Source: Bacteroidota bacterium
GTDB lineage: Bacteria; Bacteroidota; Bacteroidia; UBA7662; CANHCV01
DNA length: 57,518 nt
Reading direction: 5' to 3'
NCBI GenBank assembly: GCA_947459245.1
Contig: CANHCV010000007.1
Location: 1-57,518, forward strand
Shown here: piece after piece, positions 3,401 to 22,022 of the stretch
How positions within the stretch are numbered: the first letter of the stretch is position 1
How the letters are laid out: each line of letters opens with the position of its first letter
Notes under the pieces: model-generated
Database searches by the model: none
What the model saw: the letters and a program-made list of their open reading frames with translations, nothing else
Told to the model about the DNA's origin: nothing
Made by a program: the position numbers and the translations under genes

Positions 3401-5964
3401 TTTCGGATAGACCAAACGCGCAAAGTGTAATTACCACCTGCAGCCATGTTGGCACGTGCATTGACCATGGTGTATTGAATAACTGTTCCACTTGGAATAA
3501 TGGTTCGAATGGTATCACGTCCAATGATCGTTCCATTCAATTCAGCAACAATAATGATGTTGTTTACTGCGTTGGTACCAAAACTTCCAACAGAGATGCG
3601 GATCGGCTCAGCAGAAGAAAATCCACATGCCGCTGATCCGGTAGTTGGAGTATCAATGCTTACAACACCAGCATCGTTGGAAATGGGCGTGAACTCATAA
3701 GCACCAATGTCTGGAGTTACCACATTCCTACCTACACCCAAGATGTCATCGGTAACGTAAGATGGAGATCCCAAATTGTTGAACGATGAAATGGATGGAA
3801 TCGGATTCAATGCTGAAACGATTTGGGGATTAACCGTTAAGGATGCATTATCCTGATTGTACGTTCCTCTCCAGTTCAAGAAAGTTGGATAATCGGTGGT
3901 TCCAACTCGGAAAAGCTGATTGGTTCCCCCATTGATCCAATAATTGTTGTTATCTGAAATGAGCGACTTCACCGCGAACGTATCGTTGAAATTCAAGGCT
4001 CGGTAAGTTCCGTCCAAAGTAAATCCAGAACCGGCTTTCACCACAATGTTGTTGTTGATGAATTCTAATCCACTCAACGCAAATACTCGTTGGTTAAATG
4101 TAGAACGATTAAAATAAAATACCCCAACTCCATTATTCGCGGTGTTATTGCTACTCGTGGTTATATTGATGGTGTTGTGCACAAATGAAAGAAAATCAGG
4201 AAGAGTATCCACCGTTGCCGTAGAATCTTGTCGAATATTCGCATAAACCACAACGGGGTTTGATGTCGTGTTGAAATTACAAGAGAAAACATTGTTGTAA
4301 AACTTATTAGGAGCTGAAGCATCACCATCCATTGCACTTAAGTACAAACCGTAATTTCCTTGCTGGCCCAAGAACTTATTATTGTAAAAGTTTACATTGT
4401 CGCAAGAAATCATATAGCCACCGTAAGAAAAAGTTGAATAACCCGTGAAGTTATCTTCAAAACGGTTCCCAAACATGGTTAAGCTAGATTGATATAAGAT
4501 GTACGCTCCATAGTAAGCGGAATTTTTGATCAAATTATTCGAAAACTCATTGGTATTGTCCCTGGATGAAATAGAAGAACCTGAAGCATACAAACCGTAA
4601 TACCCATTTTCAATGGTATTATTCGTGATAACAGAGTTGCTTGTACGCTCAACATTTAAAGTACGATTGAACGTGTTTCCTCCATTCAAGTTATGAACCA
4701 ATCGGCATCCTTCAACACGAATATCGGAACAACCGGTAATGTTCAAAGGGTAATCACCCGTAGCAAAAGTGGTTCCGGTACGAGTGATGGTTAAATCGTT
4801 CAAATGTACGTTTTGCACATTATCCAAGCGGAAAACGCAACCGGTTGGGTTGGTAATCACCACATCTTGAGCACGACCCGTAGCCGACTCAAAACTCAAA
4901 ATGTAAGAATTCAATCCAGCAATCGGTCCACGCAAAGTGTGAGTTCCAGTATAGGTCCCCGAATCAATTCGAAACGTTACGTTTCCAGCAATACCACCGC
5001 ATTGTACAGCTGCAATGGCATCCGCAACCGTTCTGAAATTGGTACCGGTACGATTACCTACCGTGTACGTTCCTCCATTCATCGCAAAACAAATGGTGGT
5101 ATACAAGGTGTCGTTGAACGGATTCAAATCGGGATTCACGTTATTTGGCCCTTTAACCCACGTTTTCAAAACGTGTTGACCCGTTGTAGGCAGAGAAAGT
5201 GTACCTGGAAAATTGTGGGTAGCTGTTTGTAGCGTGGAAATATTACCAGTCCAAGAACCCGTGATGGGAGTATTATTATTGAATTGGTATCCAACAGATG
5301 CTGTAGTAATGGCATTGGAAGCATTGTTGCGAATTTCAATTGCAACGGGTACATTCTGCCCAGCAATGAATGGAGCAACCGGGGCGATTAATCGGGAAAC
5401 ACCCGCATCGGTACCGTTTGCAAATCGATACGAAATAGCACCGTTGAACTGACGTGGGTGGTTAACTGGCGTAGGCATATTACCACCGTAACCAATGTTT
5501 TGTCCAGTGCGAATTACCAAATCATTATTCGTAAATGTATCCAAATTAGAGGCATTCCAAGTTGTGTATGTTACACCTACGTTGCTTCCTACCGGCGATC
5601 CAATGTAAAAACCATAGGTTTGTCCACCTGAAAGCAAGGGCGACATAGCACCGGAAACTGGAACACCTACAAAACCTGCTCCACTTACAGGAAAACTAGC
5701 AACCAGCTCTACCCAGTTTGGAGCTTGAATCGGAAAGCTAGAAGTTCCATTGATGGGGGTTGGGGAGTACCAAATGGAAGCCGTACCCGATCCGCTGAAC
5801 TGACACCAAACGGTATCTACATACAACCCTACTTTTGGCGATAGGTTGAACGTAATACCACCTGCACCATTCCCACCGGTTAACGGTGGAACAGTGGTTA
5901 AATACTGCCCTTTTGAAGAAAAAAAGACAAAAAACAATGTGAAAACAAGGAATAGTTTTTTCAT
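478..5964 (-). CDS. Giant T9SS-secreted surface protein with beta-helix and repeated jellyroll-like modules
   Basis: This 1828-residue protein starts with a signal peptide (MKKLFLVFTLFFVFFSSKGQ); the frame extends 24 codons further upstream, but the Met at 5964 is the one followed by the signal. Residues about 300-760 look like a right-handed parallel beta-helix (runs of short Asn-rich strands such as NNLIKNSAYYGAY). Three related modules at about 880-1080, 1165-1360 and 1455-1635 each contain an 'SPCFDLTN...FWFHMYG' pattern and a 'DDI' ending, typical of choice-of-anchor J/MAM-like domains, separated by CARDB-like segments. The last 75 residues form a type A T9SS sorting domain (VYPNPAKSTITLEF, ending KLIIQH). 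It is probably exported across the outer membrane and anchored or released at the surface. The ligand is unknown; adhesion is a guess. Confidence 0.88.
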   Translation of the reverse strand: MKKLFLVFTLFFVFFSSKGQYLTTVPPLTGGNGAGGITFNLSPKVGLYVDTVWCQFSGSGTASIWYSPTPINGTSSFPIQAPNWVELVASFPVSGAGFVGVPVSGAMSPLLSGGQTYGFYIGSPVGSNVGVTYTTWNASNLDTFTNNDLVIRTGQNIGYGGNMPTPVNHPRQFNGAISYRFANGTDAGVSRLIAPVAPFIAGQNVPVAIEIRNNASNAITTASVGYQFNNNTPITGSWTGNISTLQTATHNFPGTLSLPTTGQHVLKTWVKGPNNVNPDLNPFNDTLYTTICFAMNGGTYTVGNRTGTNFRTVADAIAAVQCGGIAGNVTFRIDSGTYTGTHTLRGPIAGLNSYILSFESATGRAQDVVITNPTGCVFRLDNVQNVHLNDLTITRTGTTFATGDYPLNITGCSDIRVEGCRLVHNLNGGNTFNRTLNVERTSNSVITNNTIENGYYGLYASGSSISSRDNTNEFSNNLIKNSAYYGAYILYQSSLTMFGNRFEDNFTGYSTFSYGGYMISCDNVNFYNNKFLGQQGNYGLYLSAMDGDASAPNKFYNNVFSCNFNTTSNPVVVYANIRQDSTATVDTLPDFLSFVHNTINITTSSNNTANNGVGVFYFNRSTFNQRVFALSGLEFINNNIVVKAGSGFTLDGTYRALNFNDTFAVKSLISDNNNYWINGGTNQLFRVGTTDYPTFLNWRGTYNQDNASLTVNPQIVSALNPIPSISSFNNLGSPSYVTDDILGVGRNVVTPDIGAYEFTPISNDAGVVSIDTPTTGSAACGFSSAEPIRISVGSFGTNAVNNIIIVAELNGTIIGRDTIRTIIPSGTVIQYTMVNARANMAAGGNYTLRVWSIRNGDINFINDTASRSYFNPIVTTFPYIQSFVGQATGPGSRTNVLGWNVNPDNGFVWRWFAFNGNYTTNSGPGFDKTTGVAGSGNYMVTYGAGAGPDAIIASPCFDFTNVAAPRLAYWYHMFGSNIGTLYVEAERNGNWIVIDSIVGQQQLAKFDPWARRVVSLNQFARSTVKIRFRAPKNGTGGNQYIAIDDIEIYQAPPTDLQSAGFISPSSGVGCNVLSANQQIKVVVRNQGSATARNFTAGYIVNNGTPVTQTVTDSVRAGDTIHVTFTTRANMAAFGTYNLVTFTASPADTLRTNDTTRASIVNSVVSAFPFAENFESGVSGSGNATGTMPAGWSARPNGTGIYGWYLFSGSTGSVQTGPTVDNTLGTTSGKYIYTEASYGSTTDTAFIESPCFDLTNISNPAISFFTHRYGSTLGTMYIQYLNGSTWVNIDSLVGQIQTAETDPWVNRRYTFNKGSLTTTKIRFASTKGTSFYGDMAVDDFLFFNQVGNDVAPVALVSPANNGGCTSGVDSVRIRVANFGTTLQTNVPVSYQLLPSGTIVNGVIPRINPGDTALFTFGTTVNTSVVGLYNFRVVSGLASDQTRSNDTLLATYNNQTIVANDTQNFEGSVVPSNINKGWSIRSVSGSTYGFQIANGSVGTTLSGPTVDKTLGTTLGKYIYSYGVTGLAGDSTILTSPCINLSGVDTARLNFWFHMYGATITQLEVQARVAGSNSWVSLMTITGQQQLSNNAPWEDTSINLNAYRGQSIQVRFVTTRGTSTACEVALDDINFELKRRGSSITDIGIARVVSPTVGTRTATIRPQVWIKNYGTTTANVFDVNLTVNGTNALTQSFAGNILPGDSTLFQFTNNYNLVAPGAVRMCVSTSLFNDASRGNDSTCVNILSNVGASDVNGLGVLVYPNPAKSTITLEFNSMNQAMFEIHNSLGQVVLKEKLNGSAIQTIPVHFLKDGVYFYTITENQNKVQGKLIIQH

Positions 5965-18112: not shown

Positions 18113-20050
18113 ATGAGAAAGTTGTTCATCGTTTTCGCCGCCATCATCGCAGTTTTAGGAGCTCAAGCTCAACGCAATTGTGGATCCATGGAAGTTTTGG
18201 AGCGTTTAAAAACTGAAGATCCTTCCTACGCAGCCAAAATGGGTGAAATTGAAGAACACACGGCCGAATTCGTTCGCAACCACCAAGGTTCAACCGAAGC
18301 AGTTATTACTATTCCTGTTGTTGTTCACGTACTTTATAACACCGCTGTTCAAAACATCACCGATGCTCAAATCCTTTCTCAAATCGCTGTTTTAAACGAA
18401 GATTTCCGTCTTTTAAACGCTGATAATGTAAACACTCCTTCCGTTTTTGCAGGTTTGAAGGCCGATTGCGAAATCAACTTCGTTTTAGCAAAACGCGATC
18501 CTAACGGAAACGCAACCACCGGAATTATTCGCAAATCAACGACCGTTACTTCTTGGTCTTCCAACGACTACGTGAAATATTCTTCACGCGGTGGAGATGA
18601 TGCATGGCCAGCAGGTTCGTATTTGAACATTTGGGTTTGTAACCTTGGCGGTGGTCTATTGGGTTACGCTCAGTTCCCAGGTGGTTCTGCTATTACCGAC
18701 GGTGTAGTGGTTGGTTACCAATATTTCGGACGCACAGGTACGCTTTCTGCTCCTTTCAATAAAGGAAGAACTGCTACCCACGAAGTTGGTCACTGGTTGA
18801 ACCTTCGCCACATTTGGGGAGATGCAAACTGCGGTAACGACCTTGTAGACGATACCCCAACCCAACAAACTTCCAACTACGGTTGCCCAACTCACCCAAA
18901 AGTGACTTGTCAAAATGTGAACGGTGACTTATTCATGAACTACATGGATTATTCCGATGATGCGTGCATGTATATGTTCACAGCTAAACAAAAATTGCGC
19001 ATGCAAGCTGTTCTTGCTGCGGGTGGATCTCGTGCCACTTTAGCAACCTCTCTTGGAGGAACAGCACCAACCGGTGGAACAACTTGTTCTGCACCGAATG
19101 GATTAACCTCTTCCAACGTAGCAAACACCACCGCAACCCTCAACTGGAACAGCACTGGAGCTACTTCCTACAACGTTCAATACAAATTAGCTACAGCTAC
19201 AACTTGGACTACTACTTCTACTACTGCAACATCGTTGGCTCTTACAGGACTAACTGCAGGAACCTCCTACCAGTTTCAAGTTCAATCTGTTTGCTCTGGA
19301 GGAACAACAAGTGCTTATTCTGCTACCGTTACCTTCTCTACACTTTCTTCAACCGGTTGCGGTGTAGATGCTTTTGAATCCAACAACACGGCTGCGACTG
19401 CAAAAGCTGTAACTGTTTCTTCAACCGTTGCAGGAACTAGAAATGGACTAATTTGTCCAGCTGGAGATATCGATTGGTTCTCTTTTGCCAATACTACTGC
19501 TGCAAAAAACATCAAAGTTACATTAACCAACCTTCCAGCTGATTACGATATTTATTTGTATCGTTCAAACAACTCAACCAGAGTTTTAGCTTCTTCTGTA
19601 AAAACCGGTACAACTTCTGAATCCATGACATTAAACAACGGTACAGTTGGAACATACTTGGTGAAAATTCAAGGCTACAACAATGCAACCAATGCTTCTG
19701 GTCAATACACCTTAACCATTCAGATTGGTTCTACCACCTTCCGCATGAATCAAGATGGTACACAACAAACCATCTCTGGTTCCGATGAAGAAAGCCTCAA
19801 CAACGTAAACATTTACCCTAACCCTGCTAACAGCATGGTGAATCTTGAGTTCAACGCTACTCAAGCAGGTCAGGCTCAAATTCGTTTCATCGATCAAATG
19901 GGACGAGTAGCTCAGACCTACTACCAAACAACCACTGCTGGTAACAATTTGATGAATTTAGACATCAATGCTGTGCCTGCTGGAGTGTACTTTGTTCAAA
20001 TGATTTCCAACGAACAAACCATCACCAAACGCCTTGTAATTAGTCACTAA
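18113..20050 (+). CDS. T9SS-secreted M43 (pappalysin-type) zinc metalloprotease
   Basis: A 645-residue protein with signal peptide MRKLFIVFAAIIAVLGAQAQ. The zinc site HEVGHWLNLRH spans 223-233 with Glu224 as catalytic base, and a Met-turn follows in FMNYMDY, as in the M43 metzincins. The usual Gly of HExxHxxGxxH is Asn230. After the protease come a fibronectin type III domain (about 325-415), a pre-peptidase C-terminal domain (about 420-545) and a type A T9SS sorting domain (NIYPNPANSMVNLEF, ending RLVISH). It should be a secreted protease; the substrate is unknown. It is a single-gene unit with its own promoter and terminator. Confidence 0.92.
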   Translation: MRKLFIVFAAIIAVLGAQAQRNCGSMEVLERLKTEDPSYAAKMGEIEEHTAEFVRNHQGSTEAVITIPVVVHVLYNTAVQNITDAQILSQIAVLNEDFRLLNADNVNTPSVFAGLKADCEINFVLAKRDPNGNATTGIIRKSTTVTSWSSNDYVKYSSRGGDDAWPAGSYLNIWVCNLGGGLLGYAQFPGGSAITDGVVVGYQYFGRTGTLSAPFNKGRTATHEVGHWLNLRHIWGDANCGNDLVDDTPTQQTSNYGCPTHPKVTCQNVNGDLFMNYMDYSDDACMYMFTAKQKLRMQAVLAAGGSRATLATSLGGTAPTGGTTCSAPNGLTSSNVANTTATLNWNSTGATSYNVQYKLATATTWTTTSTTATSLALTGLTAGTSYQFQVQSVCSGGTTSAYSATVTFSTLSSTGCGVDAFESNNTAATAKAVTVSSTVAGTRNGLICPAGDIDWFSFANTTAAKNIKVTLTNLPADYDIYLYRSNNSTRVLASSVKTGTTSESMTLNNGTVGTYLVKIQGYNNATNASGQYTLTIQIGSTTFRMNQDGTQQTISGSDEESLNNVNIYPNPANSMVNLEFNATQAGQAQIRFIDQMGRVAQTYYQTTTAGNNLMNLDINAVPAGVYFVQMISNEQTITKRLVISH

Positions 20051-20073
20051 GTTCGCAGCTTAGGTTATTTTAC

Positions 20074-20104
20074 AGCCGGTTCTGTCGCAGGAACCGGCTT
20101 TTTT
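20074..20104 (+). terminator. Terminator of the M43 protease gene
   Basis: A nine-base-pair stem AGCCGGTTC/GAACCGGCT (20074-20082 with 20091-20099) is followed by a T-run. It lies 24 nt after the stop codon. Confidence 0.9.
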
Positions 20105-20105
20105 A

Positions 20106-20147
20106 TTGTCAATTTGTCAGCAAATCGTAAATGGCAAAATCCTTGCA
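20106..20147 (+). promoter_or_regulatory. Sigma-54-like promoter with TTGTCA direct repeat before htpG
   Basis: TGGCAAAATCCTTGCA at 20132-20147 matches the sigma-54 -24/-12 consensus (TGGCAC-N5-TTGCA) in every strongly conserved base, with GG and GC separated by exactly ten bases. Two TTGTCA copies at 20106-20111 and 20114-20119 lie just upstream at an 8-bp spacing and may bind a regulator. No TAnnTTTG box is visible before htpG. The predicted start site is about 12 nt before the ATG. Confidence 0.5.
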
Positions 20148-20169
20148 AAAGATTTAAAAAATCAATCGT

Positions 20170-22022
<1,853 letters not shown>

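Follow-up and report, generated by a model that had tools for sequence, protein, structure and literature searches.

A sigma-54-type htpG promoter with a conserved proximal element and a candidate receiver-less activator in a member of the Bacteroidota

As reported, 5'-end mapping combined with motif discovery in Flavobacterium psychrophilum located sigma-54 promoters (SM4) before groESL, lon, dnaK, grpE-dnaJ, htpG, and clpB, and all of these but clpB, whose product is assigned to cluster B415, fall in co-expression cluster B254 (PMC9723704). In contrast to the system described below, the portion of that account consulted here names no upstream element and no activator; three PF00158 proteins are noted and the activator is left unassigned (PMC9723704). 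The sigma-54 set of F. psychrophilum also takes in gliding genes (PMC9723704). Across the Bacteroidota, chaperone families, with HSP90 among them in the Bacteroidia, are enriched behind predicted sigma-54 promoters (PMC12316311). This latter regulon is statistical and is built on the -24/-12 element only, and the terms "UAS" and "TGTCA" are absent from the text of that paper. The same paper describes grpE and groES of B. thetaiotaomicron as sigma-54 dependent (PMC12316311); the title of the reference cited there concerns Blattabacterium, and the statement is not relied on here.

In this study, we analyzed the region before htpG in a window, that is, the whole stretch of 57,518 nucleotides from the genome of a Bacteroidota bacterium, for which a sequence-only reading had proposed a sigma-54 promoter. 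In general, sigma-54 promoters require an enhancer-binding protein (EBP), and EBPs usually bind farther upstream than -45. Among the EBPs of Proteobacteria, PspF lacks a receiver domain, and NorR recognizes palindromic sites similar to GTCA-N3-TGAC. Compared with the arrangement found here, the sites of both lie farther upstream and their regulons are different. Similar to F. psychrophilum, the genome studied here carries sigma-54-type promoters before htpG, grpE-dnaJ, dnaK, and groESL, three PF00158 proteins, and an EBP gene adjoining lptE. There is hardly any doubt about the type of the promoter, which for this phylum has ceased to be a surprise: since sigma-54 htpG promoters have been mapped in F. 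psychrophilum (PMC9723704), the htpG promoter of this genome joins a known kind. The interest lies in a second element next to it and in a candidate activator. In the open-licence literature, as far as its consulted portions extend, we found no description of a phased proximal element or of its pairing with a receiver-less EBP.

The features of the htpG promoter are collected in Table 1. The sequence-only reading had described an exact GG-N10-GC geometry placed 22 nt before the ATG, no housekeeping TAnnTTTG box, and a TTGTCA direct repeat just upstream, and each of these observations was borne out. The GG and GC lie in a TGGCA / TTGCW context. No intact housekeeping box is present in positions 20051-20172, where the sole TAnnTTTG-like string with at most one mismatch, TCAATTTG at 20109, falls within the TTGTCA repeat. 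The repeat itself coincides with the conserved second element, and because TGNCA is self-complementary, TGTCAATTTGTCA is both a direct and an inverted repeat. A terminator-like stem-loop follows the preceding gene, and thus htpG probably depends on its own promoter. By eye, this preceding gene (18113-20050, + strand) encodes a secreted metalloprotease (HEVGHWLNLRH) whose C-terminal tail resembles a type IX secretion sorting domain.

Table 1. Features of the htpG promoter region, in window positions
Feature	Position	Strand	Remarks
Intrinsic terminator stem of the preceding gene	20074..20099	+	Terminator-like stem-loop, followed by a T run
Proximal element TGTCAATTTGTCA, TGNCA-N3-TGNCA	20107..20119	+	Centre at -45 from the predicted start; putative EBP site
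Sigma-54 -24/-12 element TGGCAAAATCCTTGCA	20132..20147	+	GG 20133-20134, GC 20145-20146, N10 spacer
Predicted transcription start, A	20158	+	12 nt past the C of GC; predicted from sigma-54 geometry
htpG, 618 aa	20170..22026	+	Product Hsp90

Taken alone, the sigma-54 string is near chance and not enriched. The strict pattern has nine matches in the 2.35-Mb genome versus six for the reversed control, and with at most two mismatches it has 109 matches in the window versus 108 expected from shuffles. Motif counting by itself is uninformative, and the significance of the site derives from its position and conservation. Two of the nine strict matches are intergenic and face a gene start, namely those before htpG and before grpE-dnaJ on contig C96; the remaining seven sit within open frames. 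Similarly, TGNCA-N3-TGNCA occurs once in the window (shuffle mean 1.0), and that single copy is the one before htpG. A combined 40-nt pattern, derived from the htpG and grpE sites, has one match without mismatches in the window, and shuffles yield 0.16 matches at up to three mismatches.

We sought htpG in 60 genomes, including the one studied here, and found it in 48; 47 upstream regions were taken, and the start was recognized by script in 45. Within the 220 nt before htpG, 44 of these 45 relatives have a best sigma-54 match with at most two mismatches, versus about 2.9 of 45 for shuffles. Under the same rule, 65 of the best 80 named contigs listed in a second set, at least two of which are apparently genomes of the first, carry such a site, and the wider consensus TGGMAY-N4-TTTGMW is matched with at most three mismatches in 77 of the 80. 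In many Sphingobacteriia- and Cytophagia-type genomes (L079-L134), the -24 box of htpG reads TGGAAY rather than TGGCAY. The site is absent in L095, L109 (Dyadobacter), L151, and G045. Loss of rpoN or of the candidate EBP as the cause was rejected, as both genes are present in all ten genomes tested, four of them without the site; the loss in these four genomes is thus local.

To describe the spacing of the second element, we counted all copies with at most one mismatch in the 44 relatives by their distance to the -24 box. At 12 nt there are 26 copies, with 5 at 13 nt and 2 at 11 nt; 6 lie at 22 nt, 2 at 23 nt, and 2 at 20 nt, and single or few copies occur at 2, 4, 42, 45, 54, and 55 nt. When the best copy per locus was taken instead, with ties resolved towards 12 nt, 29 of the 44 relatives have it at 11-13 nt and 8 at 22-23 nt, 5 have it elsewhere (2, 4, 4, 45, and 55 nt), and 2 are without any. 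Among 77 named loci, 65 best copies lie at 11-14 nt, 6 at 23-24 nt, 4 at 33 nt, and 1 at 4 nt, and one locus is without any. No best copy lies at 15-21 or 25-32 nt in the 44 relatives or the 77 named loci. Such steps, of about 10.5 bp, point to a protein that, bound at TGNCA-N3-TGNCA, would keep to one face of the helix. Furthermore, neither half-site varies in its G or C among 23 relatives, partly by construction, these relatives having been picked for a spacing of 12 and at most two mismatches. We consider the second element to be very probably functional.

In one relative with a genome of 0.49 Mb (G044), a perfect TGTCAAAATGTCA stands before grpE with no recognizable -24/-12 box (L282, G044:C1:255000-264000, about 4065-4110); this genome keeps rpoN and a single strong EBP match. 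Moreover, the -12 box reads TTGTA instead of TTGCA in the two sister genomes. Both cases warn that the picture may be incomplete.

The sequence-only reading had suggested a scan of other heat-shock genes for the same two motifs. In the genome studied here, sigma-54 sites stand before grpE-dnaJ, groESL, and dnaK as well as htpG, and both motifs recur at grpE-dnaJ; at groESL the second element is weak. On contig C96, grpE-dnaJ repeats the htpG layout (element, N12, TGGCA-N6-TTGCA, N22, ATG), with one mismatch in its second element TGACATTTTGTCG. For groES (C24), the sigma-54 site TGGCATAATGCTTGAA lies 33 nt before the ATG, and the element, with two mismatches, is at 23 nt. For dnaK (C16), the sigma-54 site TGGCACAAAGTGTGAA lies 51 nt before the ATG, and the second element CGACAAACTGTCA, with one mismatch, is 43 nt upstream of that site. 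For the clpC-like gene on C4 no good site was seen, and clpB starts right at the edge of its contig.

A model of both elements, R1, was built purely from the sequences of the htpG promoters of the 23 relatives picked for spacing, with the genus studied here excluded. In our genome, where scoring covered 150 of 1120 first-look candidates, R1 placed htpG at rank 1 (E 1.3e-6) and grpE at rank 2 (1.4e-4); ranks 3 and 4 (E 0.5 and 1.1) lie within coding sequence and were set aside, rank 5 is the sigma-54 half of groES (E 2.6), and dnaK is not among the matches listed. Across the 60 genomes, with 100 candidates scored per genome, 52 have a match at E <= 0.1. We followed up all 52 matches at E <= 0.0115 outside htpG and outside our genome, two of which are grpE of the same genus, taking as target the longest frame whose start falls in the 130 nt downstream. 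The targets are GrpE (19), Lon (9), thioredoxin (8), Hsp70 (4), Hsp20 (4), and one each of a DnaJ-type protein, GroES, and ClpB, so that 47 of 52 concern protein quality control or trxA; the other five comprise one glycosyl transferase, two proteins without a Pfam family, and two cases without a usable frame. R1 saw htpG only and yet found these targets, and a protein-quality-control regulon is thereby recovered. As an R1 match needs a good score in both elements, the frequency of a missing second element is not measured by these counts. At groES sites identified independently of R1, the elements are weaker; 4 of 7 cluster loci have a scored groES site, and the best element there carries one to three mismatches.

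The genome contains one intact rpoN gene, whose product carries the three Pfam domains AID, CBD, and DBD, and three EBPs, each with a match above 160 bits. The sequence-only reading had argued that sigma-54 control of htpG would imply a stress-sensing EBP, and a good candidate is indeed present, with binding and the stress signal as proposed properties. This candidate, P0002 (G000:C24, 413 aa), is a receiver-less PspF-like EBP with a Sigma54_activat domain, a GSFTGA (GAFTGA-type) loop, and a Fis-type HTH_8, and its gene stands in the order miaB-EBP-lptE-TPR-secG-groES-groEL. A full-length ortholog (at least 50% identity) occurs in 58 of the 60 genomes; of the other two, G025 has a partial ortholog and G055 (69% complete) a weak match only. 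The recognition-helix residues 397-405 (ISERTLYRK) are identical in all 31 aligned proteins, and the linker averages 47%. In ten relatives whose EBP stretch was fetched, groES-groEL lies within the stretch in six and is absent from it in four; the stretch of G044 holds miaB and the EBP only. Among 12 genomes searched for PF00158, the candidate is the sole match above 100 bits in G013, G067, and G044, and the first two keep the htpG promoter and element. Because sigma-54 promoters require an EBP, it is the obvious candidate in G013 and G067, within draft genomes that are incomplete. P0003, one of the two remaining EBPs, carries a receiver and a GSFTSA loop. P0004 (G000:C54:13128-14528; L050:5128-6528, + strand) has a receiver-AAA+ arrangement with a degraded GSHSMI loop and no HTH_8, and it may be no sigma-54 activator at all. 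Both are less likely readers of the element. From its clustering with groESL, its standing as the sole strong PF00158 match in some genomes, and its conserved recognition helix, P0002 likely reads TGNCA-N3-TGNCA.

Could the sigma-54-like string be a chance match, with a housekeeping promoter driving htpG? The near-chance motif counts in genome and window would fit this, as would the one-mismatch -7 box at 20109. However, the site is kept in 44 of 45 relatives, grpE has a like layout, a model that saw htpG alone recovers the regulon, and the second element explains the -7-like string, so that this explanation is scarcely credible. The housekeeping promoter itself was rejected: there is no intact box, and the sole sigma-70-like site in 19900-20300 falls inside htpG. 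The geometry, the rpoN gene, the conservation, and the mapped htpG start of F. psychrophilum (PMC9723704) all support the proposed promoter, which is almost certainly of the sigma-54 type.

Given such a promoter, TGNCA-N3-TGNCA might still bind a repressor or another regulator, with the EBP acting without DNA binding or from elsewhere. The site is close to the polymerase (-45), which suits a repressor or a class II-like factor; the element of G044 before grpE has no visible sigma-54 box; and activators lacking a DNA-binding domain occur in many Bacteroidetes (PMC3372290). In contrast, the candidate EBP retains HTH_8, the recognition helix of which is identical in all 31 aligned proteins; the helical phasing to the -24 box suits direct contact with the polymerase. 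Moreover, no CIRCE inverted repeat with at most five mismatches is found in the htpG, grpE, dnaK, or groES loci of this genome, and HrcA control through CIRCE at these four loci was rejected on this ground. We consider a different regulator at the element rather unlikely. Even less probable, to the point of being very unlikely, is that the element is an extended, UP-like contact of the sigma-54 holoenzyme and no regulator site. In the majority of loci the element keeps a mostly constant distance to the -24 box, which would agree with this; however, its two half-sites form a symmetric 13-bp pair, and unlike a fixed polymerase contact the element shifts by whole helical turns (22-24 and 33 nt, and 43 nt at dnaK of this genome).

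Our preferred reading is that sigma-54 RNA polymerase would transcribe htpG from the -24/-12 element in 20132-20147, with a predicted start near 20158. The closed complex would be opened by a protein that occupies TGNCA-N3-TGNCA at 20107-20119, some 45 bp ahead of that start and on a constant face of the helix, and this protein would most likely be P0002, encoded between miaB and lptE. Upon protein misfolding, the presumed signal, P0002 would activate htpG, grpE-dnaJ, groESL, and dnaK together. How stress might be sensed is a guess; release of the EBP from a chaperone, as one example, seems doubtful. With the weak groES element and the distant dnaK element of this genome, and a position at -45 that is closer than usual for an EBP, counted against it, the explanation as a whole, comprising the sigma-54 promoter, the proximal element, and P0002 as shared chaperone activator, appears quite likely.

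More broadly, we lean towards a heat-shock regulon of the Bacteroidia that would operate through one receiver-less EBP at TGNCA-N3-TGNCA, at -45 or whole turns farther out, as a class-wide sigma-54 counterpart of RpoH/HrcA with its enhancer beside the polymerase. If element and EBP are right, heat-shock control of a large environmental and gut class would become testable through a single gene, a single 13-bp site, and a rule for its spacing, and an enhancer would be seen acting at a fixed phase directly beside its promoter. The proposal also addresses the activators of the F. psychrophilum sigma-54 co-expression clusters, left open in the consulted portion of PMC9723704.

Finally, thioredoxin follows an R1 match in eight loci (L214, L243, L245, L247, L248, L266, L269, and L209), which suggests that trxA is part of the regulon in some relatives.
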